From a virus, in the IMG/VR virus record IMGVR_UViG_3300046007_010921, positions 1 through 26,168 of that record: a stretch of DNA of 26,168 nt. One strand, given 5' to 3'. The position numbers and the translations under genes were made by a program. A model generated the notes under the pieces. It was not told the DNA's origin. It did not search any database and saw only the letters and a list, made by a program, of their open reading frames with translations. Positions within the stretch are counted from its first letter, which is position 1. Each line of letters starts with the position of its first letter. Shown here piece after piece: positions 5,002-23,323 of this stretch.

Positions 5002-5024
5002 GTTTTTTATTAATAAATATCTTA
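5002..5024 (-). promoter_or_regulatory. Leader element upstream of phoH
   Basis: On the minus strand the string contains GATATTTAT followed by TAATAAAAAAC and then, 2 bp later, ATGCCTAGAAAA. It parallels the leader at 358-377. GATATTTAT overlaps the fcl stop codon, so any promoter here would restart transcription for phoH after the sugar genes. No -33-type element was recognised. It could equally be a translation leader. Confidence 0.3.
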
Positions 5025-5945
5025 TTGTTTTATATTGGGATAGTTTTTCTCAAACCATTCCACAGTTTCTTTTATACCAATATCAAAAGGTGTGAATTTA
5101 AAATCTGGTAAATAACTCATTAACTTTGAGTTATCACTAGGTTTTCTAAATTGCCCATCTGGTTTTGTTTTATCAAAAATTACATTACCTTTAAAGTTCA
5201 TAGCGTCTACAATAACCTTAACAACATCTTTAATTGATATTTCTTCTGAAGTTGATAAAATAATTGGTTCTGATTCATCGTAATTATCTAAAACCCACAG
5301 CGCTAATTCAGCAACATCTTTAGAATATATAAATTCTCTAAGTGGTTCACCAGAACCCCAAATAACCAAATCTGTATTATTTTCTCTAGCCATATAACAT
5401 TTGTGTATTAATGAAGGGATAACATGACCGTTTTCTATATTAAAGTTGTCGTTAGGACCATAAATATTCGTTGGGATTACCGAAGTATAGCTTAAACCAT
5501 ATTGCTCTTTATACGCTCTTATTTGAACTTCTGCCATACGTTTGGCGTAAGCATAAGCATCATTAGAAAAATGTGGAGCACCTAAATGTATTTTTTTTTC
5601 AGTTAAAGGATATTCTACATTATCTGGGAACACACATGTTGATAAGAAAGCAACTAATTTTTTTACACCATGTTTTCTGGCCGATTCAATTACATTGGTG
5701 TTTATCATAATATTGTCGTAAAAAAATTCACCTTTGTATCTCATATTCCCACCAACACCACCAACTTTTGCGGCACAATGTATAATTCTATCTACAAGAT
5801 GTTCTTTATTTGTATAAAATTCAATGATAGAATCAACTGTTTTTTTATCTCTTAAATCACCAACTTTTGATGTTATAGCGATTAAATCACCCTTAAATTG
5901 TGAACCAACTAAACCGTTTGCACCAGTAACTAATAATTTTCCCAT
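5022..5945 (-). CDS. fcl: GDP-L-fucose synthase (epimerase/reductase)
   Basis: This 307-residue short-chain dehydrogenase converts GDP-4-keto-6-deoxymannose to GDP-L-fucose using NADPH. The nucleotide-binding motif is GANGLVG (8-14) and the catalytic triad residues are visible: Ser102 in FLSTCVFP, then Tyr131 and Lys135 in AYAYAKRMAE. The family-specific acid/base pair also seems kept: Cys104 in the STC segment and His174 in NGHVIPSLIHK. CAAKVGGVGGN and PLREFIYSKDVAEL are typical of GDP-fucose synthases. I chose the ATG at 5945, which gives the usual MGKLLVTGANG start and a 2 bp gap after gmd. A longer frame from 5969 would overlap gmd by 22 bp and add eight atypical residues. With gmd it completes the fucose-donor route. 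Confidence 0.92.
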   Translation of the reverse strand: MGKLLVTGANGLVGSQFKGDLIAITSKVGDLRDKKTVDSIIEFYTNKEHLVDRIIHCAAKVGGVGGNMRYKGEFFYDNIMINTNVIESARKHGVKKLVAFLSTCVFPDNVEYPLTEKKIHLGAPHFSNDAYAYAKRMAEVQIRAYKEQYGLSYTSVIPTNIYGPNDNFNIENGHVIPSLIHKCYMARENNTDLVIWGSGEPLREFIYSKDVAELALWVLDNYDESEPIILSTSEEISIKDVVKVIVDAMNFKGNVIFDKTKPDGQFRKPSDNSKLMSYLPDFKFTPFDIGIKETVEWFEKNYPNIKQ

Positions 5946-5947
5946 AA

Positions 5948-6928
5948 TTAACTTAATTTGTTTAACCAATATTCTATCATTTCGTCTAACATACTTTCAA
6001 AAGTGTAGTTAGTTTTCCACCCTAATTTTTCTTTAGCTTTTGTAGCATCACCATGAAGAAAATGTAATTCTTCAGCGCGTTCAAATTTAGCGTCTGATTT
6101 AACATAATTGTCAACGTTTAATTCTAATTTATCAAACACATAATTGACCAAGTCTCTAACACTTTTTGAAACGCCAGTAGCTAAAACATAATCGTCTGGT
6201 GCTTCTTGTTGTAACATCAACCACATACCTTCTACGTAGTCTTTAGCGTGACCCCAATCTCTCATAGCACCAAGATTACCTAGTACGAGCTCTTTAGAGA
6301 ACCCTAGTTTAATTTTTACAGCTTCAAGCACTACTTTGTTAGTTACAAAGTTTATACCCCTTCTAGGGCTTTCATGATTGAATAAAATACCAGAACAAAT
6401 AAACATGTTATAAGCGTTTCTATAATTGTGACAAAGAGTGTGAGCATATAATTTACTACACCCATAAGGGCTAACTGGTGTTAACCTAGTTGTTTCTCTC
6501 TGATAACCATCATCGTCGATTGAGTTACCAAACATTTCAGATGTTGCCGCATGGTATATTTTAGAGTTTGGTGAAAATTTTCTAACAGCTTCTAACACAG
6601 CTAACGTACCGCCACCATTTACATCCAACGTGTATTTTGGTAATTCAAAACTGATTTGTACGTGGCTTTGAGCGGCTAAGTGATATATTTCGTCTGGTTT
6701 AAGTTCATTGATAATCGATTCAACACTTATTGGGTCAGTAAGGTCCATGTAGTGAAGTGTTATTTGGTTTGAATCTCTTAATCCTTGGATTCTGGTTGTT
6801 TGAGATTCTGGTACTGAATTTCTTCTAATAGTACCATGAACTACATAACCTTTTTCAATAAGTAATTCTGATAGGTATGAAGCATCTTGACCATTTGCCC
6901 CTAAAATTAAAGCTAATTTATTTTTCAT
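5948..6928 (-). CDS. gmd: GDP-mannose 4,6-dehydratase
   Basis: This 326-residue protein is an extended short-chain dehydrogenase that converts GDP-mannose to GDP-4-keto-6-deoxymannose, the first step to GDP-fucose. The NADP motif ALILGANGQDASYLSELL (6-23) is diagnostic. Catalytic residues are TSEMFG (129-134) and Tyr155/Lys159 in SPYGCSK. The GDP-sugar-binding FNHESPRRG (183-191) and GAMRDWGHAKDYVEGMW (220-236) are strongly conserved in Gmd. It is slightly shorter than many Gmd proteins (about 340-370) but complete. It is followed by fcl after 2 bp. Its leader is AAATAAAAAT, A-rich. A related heptose-specific dehydratase cannot be excluded, though pairing with fcl favours mannose. Confidence 0.94.
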   Translation of the reverse strand: MKNKLALILGANGQDASYLSELLIEKGYVVHGTIRRNSVPESQTTRIQGLRDSNQITLHYMDLTDPISVESIINELKPDEIYHLAAQSHVQISFELPKYTLDVNGGGTLAVLEAVRKFSPNSKIYHAATSEMFGNSIDDDGYQRETTRLTPVSPYGCSKLYAHTLCHNYRNAYNMFICSGILFNHESPRRGINFVTNKVVLEAVKIKLGFSKELVLGNLGAMRDWGHAKDYVEGMWLMLQQEAPDDYVLATGVSKSVRDLVNYVFDKLELNVDNYVKSDAKFERAEELHFLHGDATKAKEKLGWKTNYTFESMLDEMIEYWLNKLS

Positions 6929-6970: not shown

Positions 6971-7408
6971 TTATTTATAATTTTCTATGTAGTCACTACA
7001 AATACCAATACATTCTGTAACATCATCGTTATGTATTTCTGGCATAACGGCAATACTTTTTTTGATGGGTTGTTTTGATGGGTAAGCCCATATATGATTA
7101 AGAGATGTTAATGTGATAGTATCATTCTCATGCCAAAAATAATTAAACGGGTATTGATTGTCTTTGAAGAATAAAACAGCTTCTATGTTTTTACAATGAA
7201 CCCATAATTTGGTCAACCTGTCTCTAAACCATCTGAAATCAACACCATATTGTGGTTTATCGTGACCCAAATATAATTGCCCATCAACATACCAAACATC
7301 TACTTCAACATCAAACCCTTTTTTTATTGCTGTGTCAATATACATCGGTTCATTTTCAAAAGATTCCATAGGGCCATTTGTATTTCCTCTATGAGCGATT
7401 AAAATCAT
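6971..7408 (-). CDS. GDPD-like phosphodiesterase family protein
   Basis: This 145-residue protein resembles glycerophosphodiester phosphodiesterases. Visible motifs: AHRGN (5-9), ESFENEP (15-21), EVDVWYVDGQLYLGHD (35-50) with the acidic pair Glu35/Asp37 and His49, and a final GICSDYIENYK. Ordinary GDPD enzymes are longer (about 240 residues). I believe this compact form, ending at 'CSDYIENYK', is a recognisable short family that occurs in surface-polysaccharide clusters, so I do not treat it as truncated. The start overlaps the stop of the SGNH gene as ATGA (7405-7408), so the two are coupled. It may hydrolyse a phosphodiester in the glycan or its precursor; the substrate is unknown. Confidence 0.75.
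   Translation of the reverse strand: MILIAHRGNTNGPMESFENEPMYIDTAIKKGFDVEVDVWYVDGQLYLGHDKPQYGVDFRWFRDRLTKLWVHCKNIEAVLFFKDNQYPFNYFWHENDTITLTSLNHIWAYPSKQPIKKSIAVMPEIHNDDVTECIGICSDYIENYK
6972..6979 (-). promoter_or_regulatory. Candidate T4-type late promoter (TATAAATA) upstream of gmd
   Basis: The minus strand reads TATAAATA, the T4 late-promoter consensus, overlapping the stop codon of the GDPD-like gene. It is 43 bp before the gmd ATG, in the longest gap of this region (42 bp). A gp55-like sigma is encoded nearby. AT-rich DNA yields several such octamers by chance, so this is only a candidate; the position is the main support. Confidence 0.3.
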
Positions 7409-8043
7409 ATTAAATTTTTCTCTTTAAATCTTTCTAAAATTATAGACATAGATGTTTGACTTAAATGCATATGTGAACCATTCCAATCATCTAAATAATA
7501 AGTGTTTGTTTCATAATTTTCATTAATCATATCATAAAAAATTGTAACAAAGTGTACATCATTTTTAATACAAAGTTCTTCAACATATCTATTGAATTCT
7601 TTGGTGATTTTATTTCTTTCAACACAGGTTCCAAAACTAGGTCCAGAATATCTTTTACTTTCATGCCATGATGCGATTGGTCCCCATACAATACAATTAA
7701 TATTTTTGTTTTTATATGATAAGATAACGTCAAAATATCTATCAACACATTCTTTAACTATATCTTCCAAAGTTCTACTTTGTAAACTCATTTGTTTCAT
7801 TAAATGAGCGCGTATATCCACTTCACCAAAACAAAATAATATACTATCATTTTCTTTAACGTGTTTATTAATAATGTCATCAATTAGGTGTTTTTTATTT
7901 TCTAATTGATATGCAGTAGCTGGTCCTAACCTATAGCTATTAAAATAAGGTAATTTGTTAGAAGCTATTTGTGGCCATTCTGGTTGCATAGTTTCTTCAC
8001 CACTAAAGACAGCAGAATGGCTGTCACCAATACAATGTATCAT
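7405..8043 (-). CDS. SGNH/GDSL-like hydrolase, FGEVD type
   Basis: A 212-residue protein with SGNH hydrolase features: GDSHS (6-10) places the nucleophile at Ser8, Gly40 (RLGPATAY) is block II, and FGEVDIR (72-78) is block III. In classical SGNH enzymes block III carries GxND. The 'FGE(I/V)D(C/I)R' form is one I associate with a family in polysaccharide clusters, so I do not call it broken. His191/His193 in GSHMHLS (189-195) is the likely catalytic histidine region, with Asp185/Asp186 just before. Such proteins commonly attach or remove O-acyl groups. The gene ends in a TGA that overlaps the next ATG. It may edit acylation of the glycan; the substrate is unknown. Confidence 0.7.
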   Translation of the reverse strand: MIHCIGDSHSAVFSGEETMQPEWPQIASNKLPYFNSYRLGPATAYQLENKKHLIDDIINKHVKENDSILFCFGEVDIRAHLMKQMSLQSRTLEDIVKECVDRYFDVILSYKNKNINCIVWGPIASWHESKRYSGPSFGTCVERNKITKEFNRYVEELCIKNDVHFVTIFYDMINENYETNTYYLDDWNGSHMHLSQTSMSIILERFKEKNLI

Positions 8044-8363: not shown

Positions 8364-9160
8364 TTTATTAAATTTTCTCTAATATAATTTTTTATAGGGC
8401 AATTTCTAGAGTAATTAACTCTTTTAATTGAAAAATACCCTTTGTTCTTTTTATCTAAAACTTGTTCTATAGTTATAAGATAATTTTTTGGTTGTGGGTT
8501 AGATGGGTCGTATGTTCCAAAATGTGGTGCAAACTCCCAAGGTTGTTGACTTAATAGAATCATATATGGAACATATACATTCATTAAATCTCTATTAGGG
8601 TAAATTTTTAGCGCTATATTTATTTTTTCTTTACATAACAACATAACCTCCTTAGTAAATGTAACACACTCCCAATTACTAATCATTGGTAATTCAATAC
8701 CTAGTTCTTTATATAAACCACCATCATCCCATGTTCCACCGTTTAAATATGGTTGTTTAATAGGGAAACCAACAATTGTTTTATCCATATCTTTACCAGT
8801 ATAATCATCATCAAAATTTTCTGTTGTATTAAATTGAGCGTAATTAATTCCTTTTTCAAATTTAATATCATCGATAAAATATTGGTTTGCCGATACTAAA
8901 CAAAAATGTTCATATTCATTTATTTCGTCAACAGTTAATGAATTAAATAATTCAATTAAAGCACCAAAAATAAAATTTGAGTGGTTTAATACTCCAGGTA
9001 CATGTCTTGTTCTAATTTTTGGGTGGTCTAGTGTTGGGTGATTTACAAAAAATTCACAGTTATCGTGAAAATGTGAAATATTATTAATCATGTCGTCAAT
9101 ATCTTCATTCGACTGAACAAATGAATGGGCAAATATAATAAAACCTGTTTTACTTTTCAT
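8360..9160 (-). CDS. Possible glycosyltransferase (GT14-like fold)
   Basis: This 266-residue protein starts with GFIIFAHSFVQSNEDIDDMI (6-25). That is followed by FFVNHPTLDHPKIRTRHVPG (37-56) and YEHFCLVSANQYFI (83-96). The middle element resembles 'LLLSGQDYPI'-type segments of GT14/core-2-type transferases. Conserved aromatic stretches (NGGTWDDGGLYKEL; PWEFAPHFGTYDP) suggest a sugar-binding fold. It overlaps the GatZ-like gene by 11 bp and the cupin by 4 bp, so it is part of the same transcription unit. There is no membrane segment. It could be a glycosyltransferase or another nucleotide-sugar enzyme. The GT call rests on weak resemblance and context. Confidence 0.45.
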   Translation of the reverse strand: MKSKTGFIIFAHSFVQSNEDIDDMINNISHFHDNCEFFVNHPTLDHPKIRTRHVPGVLNHSNFIFGALIELFNSLTVDEINEYEHFCLVSANQYFIDDIKFEKGINYAQFNTTENFDDDYTGKDMDKTIVGFPIKQPYLNGGTWDDGGLYKELGIELPMISNWECVTFTKEVMLLCKEKINIALKIYPNRDLMNVYVPYMILLSQQPWEFAPHFGTYDPSNPQPKNYLITIEQVLDKKNKGYFSIKRVNYSRNCPIKNYIRENLIK

Positions 9161-10145
9161 TTAACGTAGTTATTAACTCATTTATTCTATTATAAACCTT
9201 TTCTTGGATTAGTTTATCCAAACCATTATTAAATTTATTTTTCAAATCTATAAATTTAGGTTCAGATAAAACATAATGTCCGCTAATGTTTATAACTTCT
9301 TCTTTATTATTTTCTGGGATAAAAGATTCGTCCACCCACTTAACCCAACGTTTTGAATCATAACAAATTTGATAAAACTCATCAAATAATTCTGGGTGGT
9401 TAGATTTTATTTCTTCAAGTATAATTTTAGTTTCAATTTGGCCAAATTCTGGCGCTATATTGATACAATCTAAACCATTATCAAATTTAGACTTAACTAA
9501 TTCATTGGTTAAATAATCACCATTGTGTTCTTTTGAAATTAACCCAAATTCATCAACAACGTTGACCATATCAATTAACCTATCTTGGTTGAAACTACCT
9601 ATGTTTGTGTTACCTTTTAAAGCTGTTCCAGATTGAATTACAGCGTAAGTAATTTTAGAATAAATTTCTTCTGGTAATTCTGCTTTTAAATCTGTTAATA
9701 GTTGTTTTAATTCAGTAGCATCAGTTGGTCTTATGGCTTCTTCAGTCCCCACTTCGAATTGTAAATTGCTATTAATTCCGTGACCTAACTTAATAAAACT
9801 AATAGTTGCTTTTAACCCATCTTCATAACTTTTGTGTTTTTTCCAAACATCAACATGAATTACATCAAAATAATTACAATCCTCTATAAACGAAATCAAC
9901 CCATCATCTTCATCATATCCTTGAAGAGGTCCTGAATGGTCTCTAACCAATAAGATATTTTTAGATTTTGATTTAACATAAGTGCAAAATTCTTCGGTTG
10001 TCCAATTATTAACATAACCGCCATTATATTCTACTTGTCGTCTAGATGGAATTAACCCAATGTGTGTGTTGTTATCATTAGAGTAGTTAATTATCGCATC
10101 TACGATATTTTTACTCATTGGTCCTATAAATATTTTTGGTTTCAT
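9150..10145 (-). CDS. GatZ/KbaZ-like class II ketose-bisphosphate aldolase family protein
   Basis: This 331-residue TIM-barrel protein has the segment order of GatZ/KbaZ (tagatose-1,6-bisphosphate aldolase non-catalytic subunit family). QVEYNGGYVNNWTTEEF (37-53) matches the 'NQVN..GGYTG' region and RDHSGPLQG (68-76) matches 'GGDHLGP'. EVGTEEAI (131-138) matches the 'IGTEVP' region. AVIQSGTALKG (168-178) and CINIAPEFGQIET (227-239) follow in the expected order. In the galactitol pathway GatZ is a chaperone-like partner of GatY, but no GatY-type gene is seen here. A stand-alone family member beside nucleotidyltransferases and a kinase suggests a carbon-skeleton reaction in making an unusual sugar. 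The specific reaction is unknown. Confidence 0.7.
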   Translation of the reverse strand: MKPKIFIGPMSKNIVDAIINYSNDNNTHIGLIPSRRQVEYNGGYVNNWTTEEFCTYVKSKSKNILLVRDHSGPLQGYDEDDGLISFIEDCNYFDVIHVDVWKKHKSYEDGLKATISFIKLGHGINSNLQFEVGTEEAIRPTDATELKQLLTDLKAELPEEIYSKITYAVIQSGTALKGNTNIGSFNQDRLIDMVNVVDEFGLISKEHNGDYLTNELVKSKFDNGLDCINIAPEFGQIETKIILEEIKSNHPELFDEFYQICYDSKRWVKWVDESFIPENNKEEVINISGHYVLSEPKFIDLKNKFNNGLDKLIQEKVYNRINELITTLNEK

Positions 10146-10157
10146 GTTTTAAATATA

Positions 10158-11711
10158 TTATTTTTTTAAAGATTTGTAAAGATTAAGTCGCCCAAAATAG
10201 TATAAAAATTCACCCATTCTATAATCGTGTAGTGGTGACATATTTAACCAAATAATAGCAGTCAAAACTTTAACTTTGTTCAAATCTAAATTATTTTTTG
10301 TAATCCATTCGTGATAATTCTCTCTACAATTTGTTAATATGTCACTTCGTAAAATATCACATTTAACTGAGTTTTTACTTTTTTCGACACTAAATAAATT
10401 TTGGTGAACAATATCGTGATTGAATAGTAGATTGTGGTTTAATTTAGCTAAATCATAATATATATCACCATCTTTTAAGTCACCACCAAAATCTTGTCTC
10501 CAATCTAACAGAACAAAATCATCTTCACCTTTGTAAATGATATTATCTAATATGAAATCACCATGGAACTGATAGGCTAAATTTGAACATAACCAATCTT
10601 GGTCTATTGATTTAATCATTTCTAAAGCTGATGGCACCATTACACCATTTATCAATATTGGTTCATCTGATATTTTATGGTCGTTAAATAATTTTTCTAA
10701 TCTTTCATAAGTTTTATCAAAATAAAATTTTTTACAGATGTTAGAAAATTCTTCTATTTTGCCATGTTCAACCCAAAGATTATCTTTACTCCATTGTAAA
10801 AAATTATCAAAAATAGTTTCGTCAACGACTGTTGCTAATAAATCACCTACTGCGTATTCATATTTATAAAAATTTTCAGTGTATGATATCATTTTAGGTG
10901 TTAACCCAGACAGTTGTTGACATCTATCAACTCTATTTTGACAAATTTTTTTATTATAAAAGAATTTGATTACAAAATCTTCAAACAAAAAAATAGATTC
11001 ATCAACTTTATCTAGTAATTCAAATTTATCGTGTATGACTTCCCTAGCATGTTTTAAATCAGAAACATTACCGATGTCTAACCAATTAAAATATTCTATC
11101 ACTTCCCATTTATTAACACTCATTTTGTTTATTGCGTGACAATCACTCAAGGATGTATTTAAGATATCATTATCATATTCTTCTTGTAACACACTCCAGA
11201 ATTTTTTATAACTATTGATTCCAGCCAATCCAATATAAGCAAAGTTTGAATTCATATCACCCTTGTCATAAATCATGTTAGCTTGGTTGAATGAAATAGT
11301 TCTGTATTGTGATGTGTTTTCTTTCAAAGAGGAACCTAACCAATCATGTGTTGGTTCGCTAATTTTTTCAGTAATTATTGTATCAGCAGCATGAAAAATA
11401 AAAGGACATTGTAATTCATCTTTAGCTTTCAACATAGAATAACCAAGACTAGAACCATCACCTTCAAATTTATCTATTTCAATAAATTTGAATTTCCTAT
11501 CTGGATACACTAAAGTTAAAAAGTCTTTAACTTGTGTTCCAAAATAACCAATTGTGATGACCATTTCAACATCCTTTGGATAAGCTTCTACAATGTATGA
11601 TATCGCTGGTTTCTTACCAACTCTAACCAAACATTTGTTAGTAAATTTTGTTAAATCACCCAACCTAGAACCAATACCGCTAGTCGTTATTAAAACTTTA
11701 TACTCTGCCAT
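10158..11711 (-). CDS. Nucleotidyltransferase-kinase fusion (NTP transferase plus APH/choline-kinase-like)
   Basis: A 517-residue two-domain protein. The N-terminal domain is a sugar-phosphate nucleotidyltransferase: GIGSRLGDLTKFTNKCLV (12-29), VGKKPAISYIVEAY and HAADTII with the metal-binding Asp, then FNWLDIGNVSDLKHAR before the linker. The C-terminal half is an APH/choline-kinase-type domain: HGDFILDNIIY (383-393) with catalytic Asp and Asn, and VLLDWRQDFGG (metal-binding Asp403). The pairing suggests that a substrate is phosphorylated and then activated to a nucleotide diphosphate form, as in LicA/LicC-type pathways, though the substrate is unknown. I chose the ATG at 11711 (MAEYKVLITTSG), which overlaps the cupin by 14 bp; a start at 11735 adds eight residues and overlaps more. 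Confidence 0.75.
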   Translation of the reverse strand: MAEYKVLITTSGIGSRLGDLTKFTNKCLVRVGKKPAISYIVEAYPKDVEMVITIGYFGTQVKDFLTLVYPDRKFKFIEIDKFEGDGSSLGYSMLKAKDELQCPFIFHAADTIITEKISEPTHDWLGSSLKENTSQYRTISFNQANMIYDKGDMNSNFAYIGLAGINSYKKFWSVLQEEYDNDILNTSLSDCHAINKMSVNKWEVIEYFNWLDIGNVSDLKHAREVIHDKFELLDKVDESIFLFEDFVIKFFYNKKICQNRVDRCQQLSGLTPKMISYTENFYKYEYAVGDLLATVVDETIFDNFLQWSKDNLWVEHGKIEEFSNICKKFYFDKTYERLEKLFNDHKISDEPILINGVMVPSALEMIKSIDQDWLCSNLAYQFHGDFILDNIIYKGEDDFVLLDWRQDFGGDLKDGDIYYDLAKLNHNLLFNHDIVHQNLFSVEKSKNSVKCDILRSDILTNCRENYHEWITKNNLDLNKVKVLTAIIWLNMSPLHDYRMGEFLYYFGRLNLYKSLKK

Positions 11712-12051
11712 ATTTGTCTTCCAATCTAATAACATCGTCTAAGAAATTAGTTGAACTCTCCAAATAAAGGCTGTCAACAATCGCTTCCATTTTATGCACA
11801 ACGAATGGTTCTATTGTATGGTAATCACCTGGTTTTAGAATCATTTCGGTTAAGTTGTCTTTATCAGGCCCAACCAAAAATTTTAATTCACCAGATAAAA
11901 CATAAAATGATTCATGTTTATGTTCATGATATTGTAGACTGCAACTATTCCCAGCTGTCATATACAATTCTTTCACAACATAATTTTCATTTACTTCAAT
12001 CCATTTTTCCCAACCCCATGGTTTATCAACTTTTGTTACTTCTTTTTTCAT
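11698..12051 (-). CDS. PMI type II-like cupin (mannose-6-phosphate isomerase domain family)
   Basis: This 117-residue single cupin matches the C-terminal isomerase part of ManC-type proteins. DKPWGWEKWIEV (8-19) is the family opening. LQYHEHKHESFYVLSGE holds the metal ligands, followed by LKPGDYHTIEPFVVHKMEA with the second-motif histidine. In usual ManC proteins this domain is fused to a GDP-mannose pyrophosphorylase; here it stands alone, and no ManC domain is seen in the window. It could feed mannose-6-phosphate into the GDP-mannose pool or act on another ketose/aldose phosphate. I chose the ATG at 12051 (MKKEVTKVDKPWG), 1 bp after the upstream stop (TAATATG); a start at 12084 would overlap the HAD gene by 32 bp. 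Confidence 0.75.
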   Translation of the reverse strand: MKKEVTKVDKPWGWEKWIEVNENYVVKELYMTAGNSCSLQYHEHKHESFYVLSGELKFLVGPDKDNLTEMILKPGDYHTIEPFVVHKMEAIVDSLYLESSTNFLDDVIRLEDKYGRV

Positions 12052-12052
12052 A

Positions 12053-12412
12053 TTATAATTCTTTAAGATTTTCGATACCTTCATTTCTATCTAAATTTAT
12101 AGCAATTGCGGTATCGTGAGTTTTATTTTTCTTTCTGTCGTTAACCACGACTCTAATTCCACCACCTAACCCCATGATTAATTGGTCGTAAAAAATACCT
12201 AATTCAGATAACTGTTGTTCAGTTACTTTTCTAGCACTTTCTCTTCTACCTGTGGTTAAAATTATGTTATAACCTTTTCTATCCCATTCAGTTAAGGTTT
12301 CTAAGGTACCGTTTAATAATTTAGGTTTTGCAGTTAGTTGTTCTGTTATCTCTTCGGTATGTTCAATTAGAGTACCGTCGATGTCTAAAAAAATTGTTTT
12401 TGGTCTATTCAT
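12053..12412 (-). CDS. Small HAD-superfamily phosphatase
   Basis: A 119-residue capless HAD protein of the kind found in polysaccharide clusters. Motif I is FLDIDGTL (8-15) with Asp10 and Asp12. Motif II lies in ILTTGRR (51-57), and VVNDRK (89-94) gives the motif IV acid region. INLDRNEGIENL ends the protein, as in the related phosphatases I recognise. It probably removes a phosphate from a sugar phosphate intermediate in the pathway made by its neighbours. It follows the HAD-nucleotidyltransferase fusion by 6 bp and precedes the PMI-type cupin by 1 bp. Its ATG context is AAAATAATATG. Substrate unknown. Confidence 0.82.
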   Translation of the reverse strand: MNRPKTIFLDIDGTLIEHTEEITEQLTAKPKLLNGTLETLTEWDRKGYNIILTTGRRESARKVTEQQLSELGIFYDQLIMGLGGGIRVVVNDRKKNKTHDTAIAINLDRNEGIENLKEL

Positions 12413-12418
12413 ATTATT

Positions 12419-13792
12419 TTAATTAATAAAGTTTTCTAAATAGTTTTTAAGGTCTTCAGGTGTACCCAAGCCCCACATTTTATTTATGTTATAAGTTTTA
12501 AGTTTTAAACCATCTAAAATGGCTTCGTTATATACTGGAGCAACATAAAATTCATTATTTACTCTGATATTTTTGTTAATCATCTGTTCTGCATATTTAA
12601 CATATTCTGAACCTTTATTCCAATAATAAATCCCAACTGTAGCGATATCGCTAATAGGTTTTTTTTCTGCAATTTCAGTTATATATCCATTGTCATCTAA
12701 TTTAGCAAAAGACCATTTAGGGTGTGTAGCTTTAAATGTTAACACCCCACCATCTAAATTATCATTGGTCATTGAATAATAAAAGCTATTACTATCCCAT
12801 TCAACGAATTGGTCTGAATTGGCGATGATTAAATGTTTATCATTGTTTATATATTCTTTAGCTAACAAAGTTGTACAAGCAGCCCCTTCTGTAACACCTT
12901 CTACTTGAACAATTTCACAATTAGGTGTTATTAAGTTTAATAAAAACTTCAAATTATATTTCTCGTAATGTTCTTTTTGGACAATATAGATAAACTTAGC
13001 TTTGATGTTTAAATTTTCAACAACAACTTGAATCATAGGTTTATGGTTAACCTCTATTAATGGTTTAGGGAATGTGTATCCAGCTGAACTAAATCTAGAA
13101 CCAGCTCCAGCCATAGGAATTAGAATGTTAAAATCGTCAGTTTCCCATTTTTTAGTTGATGATGATACATCGTTTATGTTTATGATTTGTTTGTTTAATT
13201 TTTCATAGGTAACATCTTTTGGTGTTTCTACTGGGCATAAATGACCACCAGAATCAATGGCTGCTTGTCTACCGTGAAAACTATCTTCAACTATCAAAGT
13301 TTCACTAGGTTTTACACCAGCATGAACCATGCATTTTAGATAAATTTCTGGGTGTGGTTTTGTTTTACTAACATCTTCGTTTCCTAAATAATAATCAACA
13401 TATTCAATCAAACCTGTTTTATATAACATAAGTTTTATTGTTTCTCTGATTGAGTTAGAGGCTACATAAATCTTATAACCATCTTCTTTAAGTTTTTTTA
13501 ACACATTTTTTAAACGTGTATCTTCTGTTAATTGTTCTTTGATTACACCAGAAGTTAGTAATTGTTTTAATTCCCAGATTTTATCGTGACTAGATGACGG
13601 TAAATCTTTATCTATACTTAATAAATTTAACTTTGTTTTAGTAGTTAAACCATCGTATTTTGTTAAGTGTTCTTCCCTAGTAATAACAAATTTTTCATCA
13701 ATTTGTTTTAGGGCTTTATTTAATGATTCATAATGAATTTCTTTAGCGTCTACTAATACTCCATCTAAATCGAAAATTATTAATTTAACCAT
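12419..13792 (-). CDS. HAD phosphatase-nucleotidyltransferase fusion
   Basis: A 457-residue two-domain protein. Residues 1-205 are a HAD enzyme of the beta-phosphoglucomutase/phosphatase type: FDLDGVLVDA (7-16), VASNSIRET (110-118), KTKPHPEIY (143-151) with the motif III lysine, and IVEDSFHGRQAA (167-178). Residues 220-457 are a nucleotidyltransferase: ILIPMAGAGSRF (223-234), FPKPLIEV (241-248), NSDQFVEWD with the metal-binding Asp, and VNNEFYVAPVYNEAI (acceptor side). Both halves appear intact. The fusion suggests two steps of one pathway, dephosphorylation and NDP-activation, perhaps on different intermediates. It is the first gene of the cassette running down to the GDPD-like gene and is 3 bp after a glycosyltransferase. 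The sugar is not identified. Confidence 0.82.
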   Translation of the reverse strand: MVKLIIFDLDGVLVDAKEIHYESLNKALKQIDEKFVITREEHLTKYDGLTTKTKLNLLSIDKDLPSSSHDKIWELKQLLTSGVIKEQLTEDTRLKNVLKKLKEDGYKIYVASNSIRETIKLMLYKTGLIEYVDYYLGNEDVSKTKPHPEIYLKCMVHAGVKPSETLIVEDSFHGRQAAIDSGGHLCPVETPKDVTYEKLNKQIININDVSSSTKKWETDDFNILIPMAGAGSRFSSAGYTFPKPLIEVNHKPMIQVVVENLNIKAKFIYIVQKEHYEKYNLKFLLNLITPNCEIVQVEGVTEGAACTTLLAKEYINNDKHLIIANSDQFVEWDSNSFYYSMTNDNLDGGVLTFKATHPKWSFAKLDDNGYITEIAEKKPISDIATVGIYYWNKGSEYVKYAEQMINKNIRVNNEFYVAPVYNEAILDGLKLKTYNINKMWGLGTPEDLKNYLENFIN

Positions 13793-13795
13793 AAT

Positions 13796-14470
13796 TTATT
13801 GTCTTCTTAAGATATGTTTATAAATGTAATTTGTGAAGCCTGTATCGTAACTAAAATGTGTTTGATTCCAGAACCAATCACCGACCAATTCAGCTGTTGA
13901 AGATATACCGCTAGAATAATAAGCAATCGCCCCAATTAACCTCTCACTGTCATATGTATCATTTTTATTTTCTGCAATAATTTTATGAATTCCAAATTCA
14001 ACCAATTTATTTTTACCTTCTTGTGTGATATAAAAATTATTAGTCATAACACCATAACTTTCATTTGTTGGGAATGGTTTGTTGAATGTTTTTTCAAAAA
14101 ATACTTTACCACAACCATAACACGGGTCTTCACTTAAAGGATATGAACAAAGAGCTACTAATTTTTCACCATTACTTGGTTTTCTAAGCATATCTTCCCA
14201 TTCGTTTTTTAATATTTCAATAGAATCTTGAAACATAAAATATTCTGACTCTGTTGGGTATTTAGTTATGGCGTGGTTAAACGCCCCTATTTCATATTTA
14301 AGTTCGCTATTGGAAAATAAACATTCATATTTTTTGGCAATATCTTCTGATATATCTGAATCAGAAGTTTCAACTACTAAAATTTTATGTTTTTCCTTCG
14401 AAAACGACCTGAGGGAAACCAAACATTTTTCTAAAATTGTTGGGCTTTTATGTGTACAAACAATTATCAT
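13796..14470 (-). CDS. Probable GT-A glycosyltransferase (GT2-like)
   Basis: A 224-residue protein with the first strand MIIVCTHKSPTILEKCLVSL (1-20) and second strand KILVVETSDSD, as in GT2 enzymes. FMFQDSIEIL (78-87) occupies the place of the DxD motif, with a Q-D-S in place of a classic DxD. NHAITKYPTESEYF (65-78) matches the 'N.g...a.geyi' region of GT2 proteins. An unusual Cys-rich segment, YGCGKVFFEK, follows. It overlaps the GT10-like gene upstream by 4 bp (ATGA), so translation is coupled. Acceptor and donor unknown. Confidence 0.65.
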   Translation of the reverse strand: MIIVCTHKSPTILEKCLVSLRSFSKEKHKILVVETSDSDISEDIAKKYECLFSNSELKYEIGAFNHAITKYPTESEYFMFQDSIEILKNEWEDMLRKPSNGEKLVALCSYPLSEDPCYGCGKVFFEKTFNKPFPTNESYGVMTNNFYITQEGKNKLVEFGIHKIIAENKNDTYDSERLIGAIAYYSSGISSTAELVGDWFWNQTHFSYDTGFTNYIYKHILRRQ

Positions 14471-15354
14471 ATATTTAAAATTTTATTAAATATACTTAAA
14501 ATATAATCAACAGTGAATAGTTCATCATTATTAACATATTTTTCTTTTATATAATCTAAATATAAATTGTCATCATTATCTATTCTAATGATTTCTTCAA
14601 TGACTTTTTCATCACTACCGTAATCATCCCAATTGATAAAACTTTTAGTGTTAAAATCTTTTATTATTTCTGGATTACCCCAATAGATAGGGATACTATC
14701 AGCCATAATTGGTTCAAAAATTTTTTCAGTTGTGTATCCATGGTATCCATTGAAATATTGTCTATTCTCAAAAGCCATAGTAAACTTGTAACTTTTTAAA
14801 AATAAAGTTTTATTTATCGACCCTTCTATAGTACCAGCTTCTCCATTAACCGAAGGGTGATTATTCAAATAAGTACCAGCTGAATCAACTTTTTTATATT
14901 TTGATAATTCTAAAAAAAACCTAGTTCTAATACATTCAGGATACCCAGCACCCTGCGAGATAAACGAACAAAAATTAGTTTTATTTTTTAATATTTCATT
15001 TGGGTCTTTCATATTTTTAACCAAATGTGAATAATCATTAATGAACCCATGTTTTAAATAATCATAATTGTAAAGTAGGTATAAAGGTACTCTAAAAAAC
15101 CTAAAATCATCATTATAAAATGAAGTCATAGCATAATCACATAAACCAATATCAAAAAATGGTTCACCACTATAATAAACCATTTTAGCATTTTGATAAC
15201 GTTCGTTTGGTAGTAAGGTAATCACTATATCTGGGTTGTTATCAGTTACTATAACATTATATTTGTGGGATAAAACCCATGTAAATAAATTGTTGTATTT
15301 ATCAAATTTACCCCAAAAATATGTGAACCATATTTTCACATCTGTTTTATCCAT
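14467..15354 (-). CDS. Alpha-fucosyltransferase-like GT10
   Basis: A 295-residue protein with the C-terminal signature of GT10 enzymes (alpha-1,3/4-fucosyltransferases using GDP-fucose): AFENRQ (194-199), YTTEKIFEPI (207-216) and SIPIYWGNPEI (220-230). GYPECIRTRFFLELSK (137-152) resembles the conserved region after the N-domain ('R..f...L..y'). FCSFISQG precedes it, as in the family. Encoding gmd and fcl in the same region fits a GDP-fucose donor. It has no membrane segment and starts with a 1 bp TAATG overlap after the FkbM gene. The fucose donor is inferred from family and context. Confidence 0.85.
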   Translation of the reverse strand: MDKTDVKIWFTYFWGKFDKYNNLFTWVLSHKYNVIVTDNNPDIVITLLPNERYQNAKMVYYSGEPFFDIGLCDYAMTSFYNDDFRFFRVPLYLLYNYDYLKHGFINDYSHLVKNMKDPNEILKNKTNFCSFISQGAGYPECIRTRFFLELSKYKKVDSAGTYLNNHPSVNGEAGTIEGSINKTLFLKSYKFTMAFENRQYFNGYHGYTTEKIFEPIMADSIPIYWGNPEIIKDFNTKSFINWDDYGSDEKVIEEIIRIDNDDNLYLDYIKEKYVNNDELFTVDYILSIFNKILNI

Positions 15355-16791: not shown

Positions 16792-17474
16792 ATTTTTGTT
16801 TCTTTTAAAACAGTTATTTTATCGTCATCTGGTTCGTTAAAAACCTTATCTTTTACACCTTTAATAATAAAAACACTAGAATTAATATTCATATTAAATT
16901 CATATTTCTTCCTAACTTGTTTAGACCATAGGACATCTTCTCCCTCACCCCAAGCTAAATTTTCATCCAAAGGAAATTCCAACATAACATCTTTTTTAGC
17001 AATCCAATACGAACCAGATATGTACATGTATTTTGACAGGTGGATAATATCGTAAGGTATCAGACAATCTCGTCCAATAAAAGCATCCATTTTATTATTG
17101 TTATGCGGCCATATACACCAATCTCTAAACCTTTCACCATTATTATTAATGATTTTATCCATCCTTATTTTAAAATCATCACCAGACTTTAATTGTCCAT
17201 TATACCAATCTTCATTTAATTTAATGTAATCATGTAAATAAACGATGTTATCAAAATTTGCTTCGTTAGTGATGATATTTTTTTTCTTGGTAATCCATGC
17301 TCTTTTGATATTTTCATCAAAAGAGATAATTTTGGTGTTATTTCTATTTACAGAGCTATTACCAACTATTATTATTTCATATGATGGTATATTTTCTTTT
17401 TCAATAGAATCTATGATTTCATTAATCATAACGTCATTATTACCACCAGTTATTATTCCAAAAGTGAAATTCAT
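16782..17474 (-). CDS. GT-A glycosyltransferase (GT2-like)
   Basis: A 230-residue protein with GT2-like features: FTFGIITGGNNDVMINEIID (3-22) and YEIIIVGNS (32-40) form the nucleotide-binding strands. KKNIITNEANFDNIVYLHDY (64-83) corresponds to the 'arN.g...a.gd.i.flDdD' segment with HDY at the metal position. LAWGEGEDVLWSKQ (173-186) is the 'GEDxd' acceptor-base motif. Length is short but complete. Linked by TAATG overlap to the GT10-like gene upstream and by 10 bp overlap to the GT25 gene downstream. Substrate unknown. Confidence 0.72.
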   Translation of the reverse strand: MNFTFGIITGGNNDVMINEIIDSIEKENIPSYEIIIVGNSSVNRNNTKIISFDENIKRAWITKKKNIITNEANFDNIVYLHDYIKLNEDWYNGQLKSGDDFKIRMDKIINNNGERFRDWCIWPHNNNKMDAFIGRDCLIPYDIIHLSKYMYISGSYWIAKKDVMLEFPLDENLAWGEGEDVLWSKQVRKKYEFNMNINSSVFIIKGVKDKVFNEPDDDKITVLKETKIWI

Positions 17475-18298
17475 TATTTAAAAACATTTGTATTTTCGTA
17501 TATCCAATCTTCGGCAATCAAGAATTTTTTGGCTAATTCAAAATTTTCTTTAACTGCTGGGAGCATGGATTTATATTTTTCCAAGGATAACGAATTTAAT
17601 TGGAAAAGTAAATCATTAACATCGTTAAAAACTATCATTCCGTCTAAATTAAAGAAATCACCTATAGAAGGACACCCCCAATAGATTGGTACTGTTCCAG
17701 TCATAAATGAATCAATTAGTTTTTCAGTAAAATAATAGTCAAATTTTGAGTTTTCAATAACAATTGAAAAAGCATAATCGCTAAATGCTTCTAACTTGTA
17801 TTCTATTGATGAGTAACCTCTACCATAAACGTCTAAATTTATACCGTTATTCTTAGCTACTGATATCGATTCGTGTCTTAACCTGTGACCAAAAGTGGAT
17901 TGTTTGTTTGAAGCAACTATAGAAACTAATTTATTTTTTTCATAAATTTTTTGGTCTTCTGGTTTTATCCAACAACCACTATGTGGATAAAATTTAAAAA
18001 CTTTAGACGTATCTAATAATTCTTTATCATAGGTGAATATTGTATCAAATGTTGAATAGTTTGACTTAACCCATTCATAGATTGAACTGTTTATCGCTCT
18101 TGGCTCCATCATGAAACCATACCGTTTACCGTTTGTCATTAAGCGCATTGAATTGTCGGTTAAAAAAACTATATCTTCTTCTGTTAAAAATCTAGTGTCT
18201 CTATCCCAATCAATGTGTTTTGATTCTTGAAAATCGGTTGAGAATTTGGCGTGCGCAAAATTAGTGTCAATTATTTTAACTTTCATTTTTGAATTCAT
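17474..18298 (-). CDS. Second GT10 fucosyltransferase-like protein
   Basis: A 274-residue protein with the GT10 C-terminal signature: SIVIENSKFDYYFTEKLIDS (178-197) followed by VPIYWGCPSIGDFF. GHRLRHESI (137-145) and LDVYGRGYS (155-163) are the other family landmarks. The N-terminal domain is different from the GT10-like protein at 14467-15354, so the two probably act on different acceptors. GDP-fucose is a likely donor by family and because gmd/fcl are encoded, but not proved. The start at 18298 overlaps the upstream gene by 23 bp. A later ATG at 18286 (MKVKIID) is possible and has the A-rich leader CAAAA. Confidence 0.78.
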   Translation of the reverse strand: MNSKMKVKIIDTNFAHAKFSTDFQESKHIDWDRDTRFLTEEDIVFLTDNSMRLMTNGKRYGFMMEPRAINSSIYEWVKSNYSTFDTIFTYDKELLDTSKVFKFYPHSGCWIKPEDQKIYEKNKLVSIVASNKQSTFGHRLRHESISVAKNNGINLDVYGRGYSSIEYKLEAFSDYAFSIVIENSKFDYYFTEKLIDSFMTGTVPIYWGCPSIGDFFNLDGMIVFNDVNDLLFQLNSLSLEKYKSMLPAVKENFELAKKFLIAEDWIYENTNVFK

Positions 18299-22327: not shown

Positions 22328-23323
22328 TTATTTATTAAAACGATTATAAGCGTTGTCGCTTATTTTTATTGTATCAGCTTTCCCAATAAATTGAGCTAGG
22401 GTTTTAGTGTTAGAATAACTCATCGCTGAACGAAGATAATCTTCAAAATTATTAACCCATTGTTTTAAGTTATATTCAACCTTTCTAAATCTAACAACAC
22501 CTTCAGACGTTGTTAATTCTTTTTTACCCCATTTTTTTTGAACTTCTTTGGTACTCATACCTCTGAATTTCTTATATACGGTAATTTTATTTTTATAACA
22601 TAAATTAGCAATTCTTTGTGGTATCCATATTTTTTTGAACAAATAGTTTTCACCACAAGAATCGATAGCTTTGTTAAAAAGACTACCAACCATAACAAAG
22701 TTAGCACCTAACGCCAATGCTTTTATAACATCTGAATAATTTTGCATACCACCATCCGCTACAATATACGCTGCATCATCATATGTTTTAGCTATATCAT
22801 AACATTCTTTAATCAAAGACGCCATAGGGTAACCAACACCAGTATGTACTGTTGTGCTACAACCACCACCATTTCCGATACCAATCCTAACAAAATCAGC
22901 ACCAGCTAAGGATAATTTTTCATATGTTTTAGGGTTAGCAACATTACCAACCATTAAAATCAAATTAGGATAACTCTCTTTTGTTTTTTTAACAGTTTCT
23001 AAAAGTTTACCCATATGACCATTTGCGATATCAATTAAATAAAATCCAGTTTGATTTAATTCTTTTTTATCAAACAATTCATCAAATTCAGATAATGAAA
23101 AAGACATAAAACCAGTTGTGTTTTTTTCACCTCTAGGTGAACATGTAATGATTTTTAAACCATCATATAGTTTTTCATTATTTTCATCGATAACAGAATC
23201 CATTGGTGCTGTTATTAGAGGTAAATAACCATTAATAAATGGTTCTACTTCTTTTCTACTATCTATTTTAGATGTTATAGAAGGTTTGATTAAAATATCG
23301 TTAAAATCGAATTTTGTTGCCAT
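22328..23323 (-). CDS. IMP dehydrogenase/GMP reductase family enzyme without CBS domain
   Basis: A 331-residue TIM-barrel protein of the IMPDH/GMPR family. FDFNDILIKPS (5-15) is the family start, LITAPMDSV (36-44) the IMPDH-like strand, and GIGNGGGCSTTVHTGVGYP (148-166) carries catalytic Cys155. VADGGM (188-193), MVGSLF (211-216) and RGMSTKEVQKKWG (254-266) follow, then LRSAMSY. No CBS (Bateman) domain is inserted, as in GMP reductase. APMD points to IMPDH and 'GMS' to GMP reductase, so I cannot decide. It adjusts the purine pool, fitting dUTPase nearby. It starts with a TAATATG junction after the dUTPase. Confidence 0.85.
   Translation of the reverse strand: MATKFDFNDILIKPSITSKIDSRKEVEPFINGYLPLITAPMDSVIDENNEKLYDGLKIITCSPRGEKNTTGFMSFSLSEFDELFDKKELNQTGFYLIDIANGHMGKLLETVKKTKESYPNLILMVGNVANPKTYEKLSLAGADFVRIGIGNGGGCSTTVHTGVGYPMASLIKECYDIAKTYDDAAYIVADGGMQNYSDVIKALALGANFVMVGSLFNKAIDSCGENYLFKKIWIPQRIANLCYKNKITVYKKFRGMSTKEVQKKWGKKELTTSEGVVRFRKVEYNLKQWVNNFEDYLRSAMSYSNTKTLAQFIGKADTIKISDNAYNRFNK

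Follow-up and report, generated by a model that had tools for sequence, protein, structure and literature searches.

What would a virus do with a run of genes that looks like a pathway for activating sugars? The question is raised by the IMG/VR virus record IMGVR_UViG_3300046007_010921, analysed here as a single stretch of 26,168 bases (the window). Five open reading frames (ORFs) lie at 9150-13792 on its minus strand, each abutting its neighbour or overlapping it by a few bases. In order of transcription, they encode a fusion of a HAD protein with a nucleotidyltransferase (HAD-NTPT), a small HAD protein, a cupin, a fusion of a nucleotidyltransferase with a kinase (NTPT-kinase), and a protein resembling GatZ. 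An earlier note on this DNA had listed these five consecutive genes, all of which are present, and had suggested that they make a C-C bond product, phosphorylate or dephosphorylate it, and activate it with a nucleotide. We find that four of them (cupin, NTPT-kinase, GatZ-like and small HAD) are a conserved cassette, and we lean, with slightly better than even confidence, towards reading it as a phage-borne nucleotide-sugar pathway in which a ketose-phosphate 4-epimerase feeds a line of isomerase, phosphatase, kinase and NTPT.

A conserved four-gene core

With the GatZ-like protein as query, 19 viral and 12 cellular loci came to light. All 18 viral loci with readable neighbours also carry NTPT-kinase and cupin genes, and most carry a small HAD. 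Viruses were also scanned with an NTPT-kinase profile, using the best 80 of the 351 loci that encode a relative. Co-occurrence was counted over the 57 viral loci flanked by 4.5 kb or more on both sides, where all ORFs were scanned and genes within 4 kb were accepted: the GatZ-like gene is present in 57/57, the cupin in 56/57 and a small HAD (of either of two types, sHAD or HAD3) in 56/57. The two sets of loci are partly dependent, as the NTPT-kinase profile includes rows first found via GatZ and a few contigs recur (e.g., L002, L012 and L018), yet most of the NTPT-kinase loci are new.

For cellular genomes, the NTPT-kinase profile alone served as the query. It yielded eight new bacterial genomes, seven of which have a GatZ-like gene on the fetched stretch, with a KdsC-like HAD and a cupin in most. 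The NTPT-kinase is rare in cells: besides the seed genomes, it was found in one of about 300 genomes of the G001 phylum, one of about 370 of the G002 class and six of about 300 of the G004 order, and a profile search of 250 genomes of the G008 phylum found none. Hundreds of viral contigs hold the cassette, versus about 0-2% of the cellular genomes sampled, and its carriers are marine phages plus a few scattered bacteria and archaea. The co-occurrence counts and the independent bacterial test led us to reject a chance island of glycan genes. As far as sequence can tell, the idea of a sugar-activation cassette with phosphorylation or dephosphorylation and nucleotide activation is supported.

The fifth ORF, the HAD-NTPT fusion (12419-13792, minus strand, 457 aa), adjoins this core but does not belong to it. 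Its HAD_2 (beta-PGM-like) and NTP_transferase domains each score above cut-off, and several Synechococcus phages encode proteins that share about 59% identity with it. It is present in 13/57 cassette loci and, conversely, only 3/52 viral HAD-NTPT loci of at least 10 kb have a GatZ-like gene. We therefore rejected this common cyanophage gene as a core pathway member; given its Synechococcus phage homologues and its rare association with GatZ-like genes, it probably serves another pathway. The originally proposed set of five is thus reduced to four co-conserved genes, and the core contains a single NTPT, kinase, HAD, cupin and GatZ-like protein.

The small HAD protein (12053-12412, minus strand, 119 aa) is a predicted sugar-phosphate phosphatase which matches several HAD families. 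Across carriers, the phosphatase slot is filled by different proteins: 62 viral loci with context have sHAD (39 loci), HAD3 (20) or both (2), and in bacteria a KdsC-like HAD occupies it. Profile comparison shows sHAD and HAD3 to be distant relatives. Orthology of sHAD and the KdsC-like HAD was rejected, as pairwise BLAST finds only a shared DxDG motif and profile comparison aligns just 21 columns. That non-orthologous proteins stand in for one another in one fixed slot is a good indication that the phosphatase step is needed.

Gene order varies as well. Phages mostly have cupin, NTPT-kinase and GatZ-like genes in that order, with the HAD ahead or behind, and the usual bacterial order is KdsC-like HAD, GatZ-like, a 274-aa protein without a Pfam match, cupin and NTPT-kinase. 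A methyltransferase often accompanies the bacterial cassette (its phage homologues bear a C-methyltransferase C-terminal domain), and bacterial copies neighbour genes which, judged from their sequences, are of polysaccharide type. At eight viral loci (L003, L004, L007, L008, L013, L016, L017 and L019), cupin, NTPT and kinase are fused into one chain of about 635-650 aa, and in 8/8 of these a shikimate-dehydrogenase-like gene (about 7380-8000) sits between the triple fusion and the GatZ-like gene. Such a gene also lies beside the NTPT-kinase in two cellular loci (L032:7733-8533 and L060:10424-11212), and none was found in the other sampled loci. The MPFK motif of its product, where K is the usual catalytic position, is kept in three aligned sequences.

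A further variation concerns a SnoaL-like domain, which is fused to the C-terminus of the GatZ-like protein in L071:9554-10876. SnoaL-like proteins are also encoded by separate genes near the cassette in other phages, a Pelagibacter and a Thaumarchaeon (L100:7347-7685, L107:7333-7695, L026:11874-12203 and L032:12412-12765).

The GatZ-like protein: epimerase or aldolase

The GatZ-like protein (9150-10145, minus strand, 331 aa) is a predicted metal-dependent ketose-phosphate 4-epimerase. By sequence score its match to the GatZ/KbaZ family is weak: it reaches 16.1 bits (E 0.0047) against Pfam PF08013, under the cut-off of 26.7, and 18.9 bits against the KbaZ equivalog NF012002, which has a cut-off of 707. 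Its orthologue from a groundwater bacterium (L025) scores 34.5 bits against PF08013 and so passes. For a long time described as aldolase chaperones, GatZ and KbaZ of E. coli epimerise fructose-6-P to tagatose-6-P, and the roles proposed for GatZ residues are a catalytic Asp as base and His/His/Glu metal ligands (PMC11907403). D69, H70, E135 and H207 of the window protein align with E. coli GatZ D87, H88, E171 and H257, four residues that are invariant across GatZ, its relatives in phosphotransferase system (PTS) operons, and the bacterial cassette and phage proteins (alignment A4).

The predicted structure has a mean predicted local distance difference test (pLDDT) score of 90. Its fold matches include GatZ (2fiq, Z 30.1), a second PF08013-type protein (3txv, Z 28.3), an archaeal tagatose 4-epimerase (9kcs, Z 26.8) and UxaE (6il9, Z 24.9), and class II aldolases, with a best Z of 22.4, rank below GatZ and the ketose 4-epimerases. 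The whole-chain fold of the model, which matches this group above other families, places the protein in the GatZ/KbaZ-UxaE ketose 4-epimerase fold group. We consider C4 epimerisation of a ketose phosphate, i.e., retro-aldol and aldol steps on one molecule, more likely than net C-C formation, because GatZ and KbaZ have this activity (PMC11907403), the metal ligands and base are conserved, and the model is nearest to GatZ, tagatose 4-epimerase and UxaE.

The earlier note had instead seen a true aldolase, which would form a new C-C bond from dihydroxyacetone phosphate (DHAP) and an aldehyde. The class II aldolase fold is compatible with this, and the epimerase mechanism itself runs via aldol chemistry, but the nearest folds are GatZ and 4-epimerases rather than aldolases and no conserved gene supplies an aldehyde or DHAP, making a true aldolase very unlikely. 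The same note was right that the protein comes without a GatY partner: the class II aldolase family (GatY/FBA, PF01116) was found neither among the window proteins scanned nor in any of 16 related viral records (66-281 kb, which may be fragments), with control genomes positive in 11/14 cases.

In a tree of GatZ-like proteins, the phage sequences form their own supported group (35 rows) apart from the cellular ones, and on this basis we rejected the phage gene as a recent copy from the sampled bacteria. Two sequences from metagenome-assembled genomes (MAGs) lie inside the phage group: one from a Flavobacteriaceae MAG (L021:10001-10975), with no other cassette gene on its stretch, and one from a Chloroflexota MAG (L022:9306-10010), which follows a KdsC-like HAD at a contig end. 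Related single-copy GatZ genes occur in fructose-type PTS operons of Listeria and Klebsiella plasmids, the Klebsiella one together with transaldolase and transketolase. On a Sinorhizobium plasmid (L033:8016-11492), the neighbours of a GatZ-like gene are a cupin, a HAD and an aminotransferase of the DegT type, which may be a version of the cassette's first steps that leads to an amino sugar.

A proposed route from ketose phosphate to nucleotide sugar

The cupin (11698-12084, minus strand, 128 aa) is a predicted sugar-phosphate isomerase of the PMI type. It scores 36.3 bits against PF01050, over the gathering cut-off of 23.6, and its residues Q51, H53, E58 and H97 (QxH...E...H) are invariant in alignment A3. 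Against the ManC GMP-PMI equivalog it scores 35.5 bits, short of the cut-off of 372.95, and it is a separate gene in the window. The coordinates given for the cupin and NTPT-kinase ORFs run from the first ATG, and homologues point to starts about 9-12 residues further in: the cupin probably starts at Met12, and NTPT-kinase homologues begin near residue 9 (MAEYKVLI).

The NTPT-kinase (10158-11735, minus strand, 525 aa) joins an N-terminal NTPT domain (LicC/RmlA/MurU-like) to a C-terminal small-molecule kinase domain of the APH type. Its NTP_transferase and APH calls are weak in the window protein, and the APH call is over cut-off in L025 (31.3 vs 23.2 bits). The kinase motifs HGD (391-393), N398 and DWR (411-413) are invariant in the homologue alignment. 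A model of the whole protein has a mean pLDDT of 90.7, and the matches of a structure search with it are taken up by the NTPT domain. As the earlier note had observed, the layouts of ManC and GlmU are absent: the ManC C-terminal and GlmU acetyltransferase domains are missing from both NTPTs of the five-gene run.

The relatives of the NTPT suggest more than one type of substrate. Both the sequence profile and Foldseek rank LicC first among the PDB matches of the domain, which would fit a LicCA-type system for cytidine diphosphate (CDP)-alcohols, where kinase and cytidylyltransferase handle an amino alcohol or polyol and GatZ and the cupin have a different role. VIA-align, however, puts RmlA, GalU, PntC and LicC equally near the domain (Z about 25), and the Foldseek matches include MurU. 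The NTPT-kinase is also linked almost without exception to a predicted sugar-phosphate epimerase, isomerase and phosphatase, and we consider a CDP-alcohol system highly improbable.

From the gene set, its linkage, the motifs and the predicted folds, we infer the following reactions. The GatZ-like protein, working without GatY, would use a bound metal and retro-aldol/aldol chemistry to invert a ketose phosphate at C4, in the simplest case converting fructose-6-P to tagatose-6-P. The PMI-type cupin would then turn ketose phosphate into aldose phosphate, and a mannose-type isomerase acting on tagatose-6-P would yield talose-6-P. The small HAD would strip the terminal phosphate and the APH-type kinase would phosphorylate the anomeric hydroxyl, in either order (as in MupP-AmgK or as in HldE-GmhB). 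The fused NTPT would add a nucleotide to the sugar-1-P, giving a nucleoside diphosphate (NDP)-hexose such as NDP-D-talose, which neighbouring glycosyltransferases would use on a surface glycan. Out of central metabolism, the most direct path would lead from fructose-6-P through tagatose-6-P, talose-6-P and talose-1-P to NDP-talose. We name NDP-D-talose as the specific product tentatively, and it may well prove to be another sugar.

If the cupin were not an aldose-ketose isomerase, the HAD and kinase could shift the phosphate to the anomeric C2 once C4 has been epimerised, and the product would be an NDP-ketose (e.g., NDP-tagatofuranose). Ketofuranoses do occur in bacterial capsules, such as fructose in C. 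jejuni HS:1, and L071 has NTPT-kinase and GatZ without a cupin. But a cupin is present in all except one of the 57 loci, keeps its PMI-like residues and is fused to the NTPT-kinase in the eight triple-fusion loci, which makes an NDP-ketose unlikely.

Several points weigh against the scheme of a 4-epimerase feeding an activation line. L071 lacks the HAD as well as the cupin, and the subtype with the shikimate-dehydrogenase-like gene falls outside what the scheme explains. The NTPT is about as close to the CTP:phosphocholine cytidylyltransferase LicC as to sugar NTPTs, and a sequence search against solved structures gave the kinase domain no clear relative. The GatZ mechanism is, in its authors' own words, a docking model (PMC11907403). 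The second shell of the GatZ-like active site departs from that of E. coli GatZ (K279 is replaced by N, and E44 by P or A), so the substrate may not be fructose-6-P, and a heptulose or pentulose phosphate is possible.

This last point can be extended to a different product: acting on sedoheptulose-7-P or another non-hexose ketose phosphate, the cassette would make an NDP-heptose or pentose, in parallel with HldE-GmhB. The logic of isomerase, kinase, HAD and NTPT is that of the ADP-heptose route. The one GatZ-less locus among the eight new bacterial genomes, from the Pelagibacter-group order (L061:7845-12812, a partly masked stretch), combines its cupin, KdsC-like HAD and divergent NTPT-kinase with a split transketolase and an isomerase with a SIS domain (GmhA-like). 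The characterised GatZ relatives, however, use hexulose phosphates, and the cassette is accompanied by no further conserved gene specific to heptoses, so we regard a heptose or pentose product as improbable.

A hexose line that begins with C4 epimerisation remains our preferred reading. In its fullest form, this would be an undescribed pathway that makes a nucleotide sugar de novo: a ketose-phosphate 4-epimerase that depends on metal and needs no cofactor would set C4 before activation, and the product would be NDP-D-talose or a different 4-epimer. Marine viruses would be the main means of its spread, and a shikimate-dehydrogenase-like oxidoreductase would be added in a second subtype. This full form is possible, but we would not yet call it probable.

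Surroundings, known systems and significance

The window's gene-like ORFs lie on the minus strand and include PhoH, dUTPase, a sigma-70-region-2-like protein and many glycosyltransferase-type genes. A pair of GDP-mannose 4,6-dehydratase-like and epimerase-like genes at 5022-6928, possibly for GDP-fucose synthesis, shares an island with two fucosyltransferase-like genes (GT10; 14467-15354 and 17474-18298). A 331-aa protein with an IMP dehydrogenase/GMP reductase domain (PF00478, E 1.8e-41) is encoded at 22328-23323. The short protein at 6971-7408 (phrog_34507) resembles, on visual inspection, the N-terminal portion of a glycerophosphodiester phosphodiesterase (HRGN...E.DV), and its relatives recur near the cassette in L002, L071, L099, L100, L107 and L114.

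Parts of the cassette resemble known systems, each of which differs from it in other respects. With E. coli GatZ/KbaZ (2fiq), the GatZ-like protein shares its fold, the proposed base and metal ligands, and a plausible ketose phosphate substrate. It differs in its low identity (about 15%), sub-threshold Pfam score, lack of a GatY partner, biosynthetic rather than catabolic setting, altered second shell, and SRRQ, WxKW and GHY motifs. UxaE and the tagatose 4-epimerases (6il9, 9kcs and 9lhw) share the fold group and, as predicted here, the C4-epimerisation chemistry, but they are longer and act on unphosphorylated ketoses or ketouronates.

For the activation steps, one parallel is the Pseudomonas MupP-AmgK-MurU route to UDP-N-acetylmuramic acid (UDP-MurNAc). 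There, a HAD takes off the 6-phosphate, the 1-phosphate is formed by an anomeric kinase, and MurU attaches UMP (PMC5371407). The cassette has the same trio of HAD phosphatase, APH-family kinase and MurU-like NTPT, its HAD lying beside the NTPT-kinase in 56/57 viral loci. MupP-AmgK-MurU differs in being a salvage route with separate genes, a MurNAc substrate and neither epimerase nor cupin. The HldE-GmhB ADP-heptose pathway likewise has kinase and NTPT in one polypeptide, a HAD phosphatase and a preceding isomerase. However, the HldE kinase is N-terminal and of the PfkB/ribokinase type, the isomerase is GmhA (SIS) rather than a cupin, and there is no C4 epimerase. ManC (GMP-PMI) also ties a PMI cupin to an NTPT, but in the order NTPT then cupin and without a kinase, whereas the phage fusion runs cupin-NTPT-kinase and its NTPT is LicC/RmlA-like.

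No search assigned every gene of the set to a known pathway by orthology, and searches of open-access papers turned up no description of a cassette with this composition; they covered phage GatZ, tagatose aldolase in glycan loci, capsules with fructofuranose, and nucleotide-activated talose. All the enzyme types are known, but their assembly, and the proposed use of a GatZ-type epimerase in nucleotide-sugar synthesis, appear to be new. At least one ocean-wide survey of viral metabolic genes left out contigs with nucleotidyltransferase and carbohydrate-kinase islands by design (PMC11360552), so the cassette may have been filtered out there. Its enzymes are small, soluble and directly assayable.

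In most known routes to C4-epimeric glycan sugars, an NAD-dependent enzyme acts on the nucleotide sugar once it is complete. If our reading is true, a route with epimerisation at the ketose phosphate stage would follow another biosynthetic logic, and it would give a job to GatZ-like proteins that are annotated as "non-catalytic subunits".

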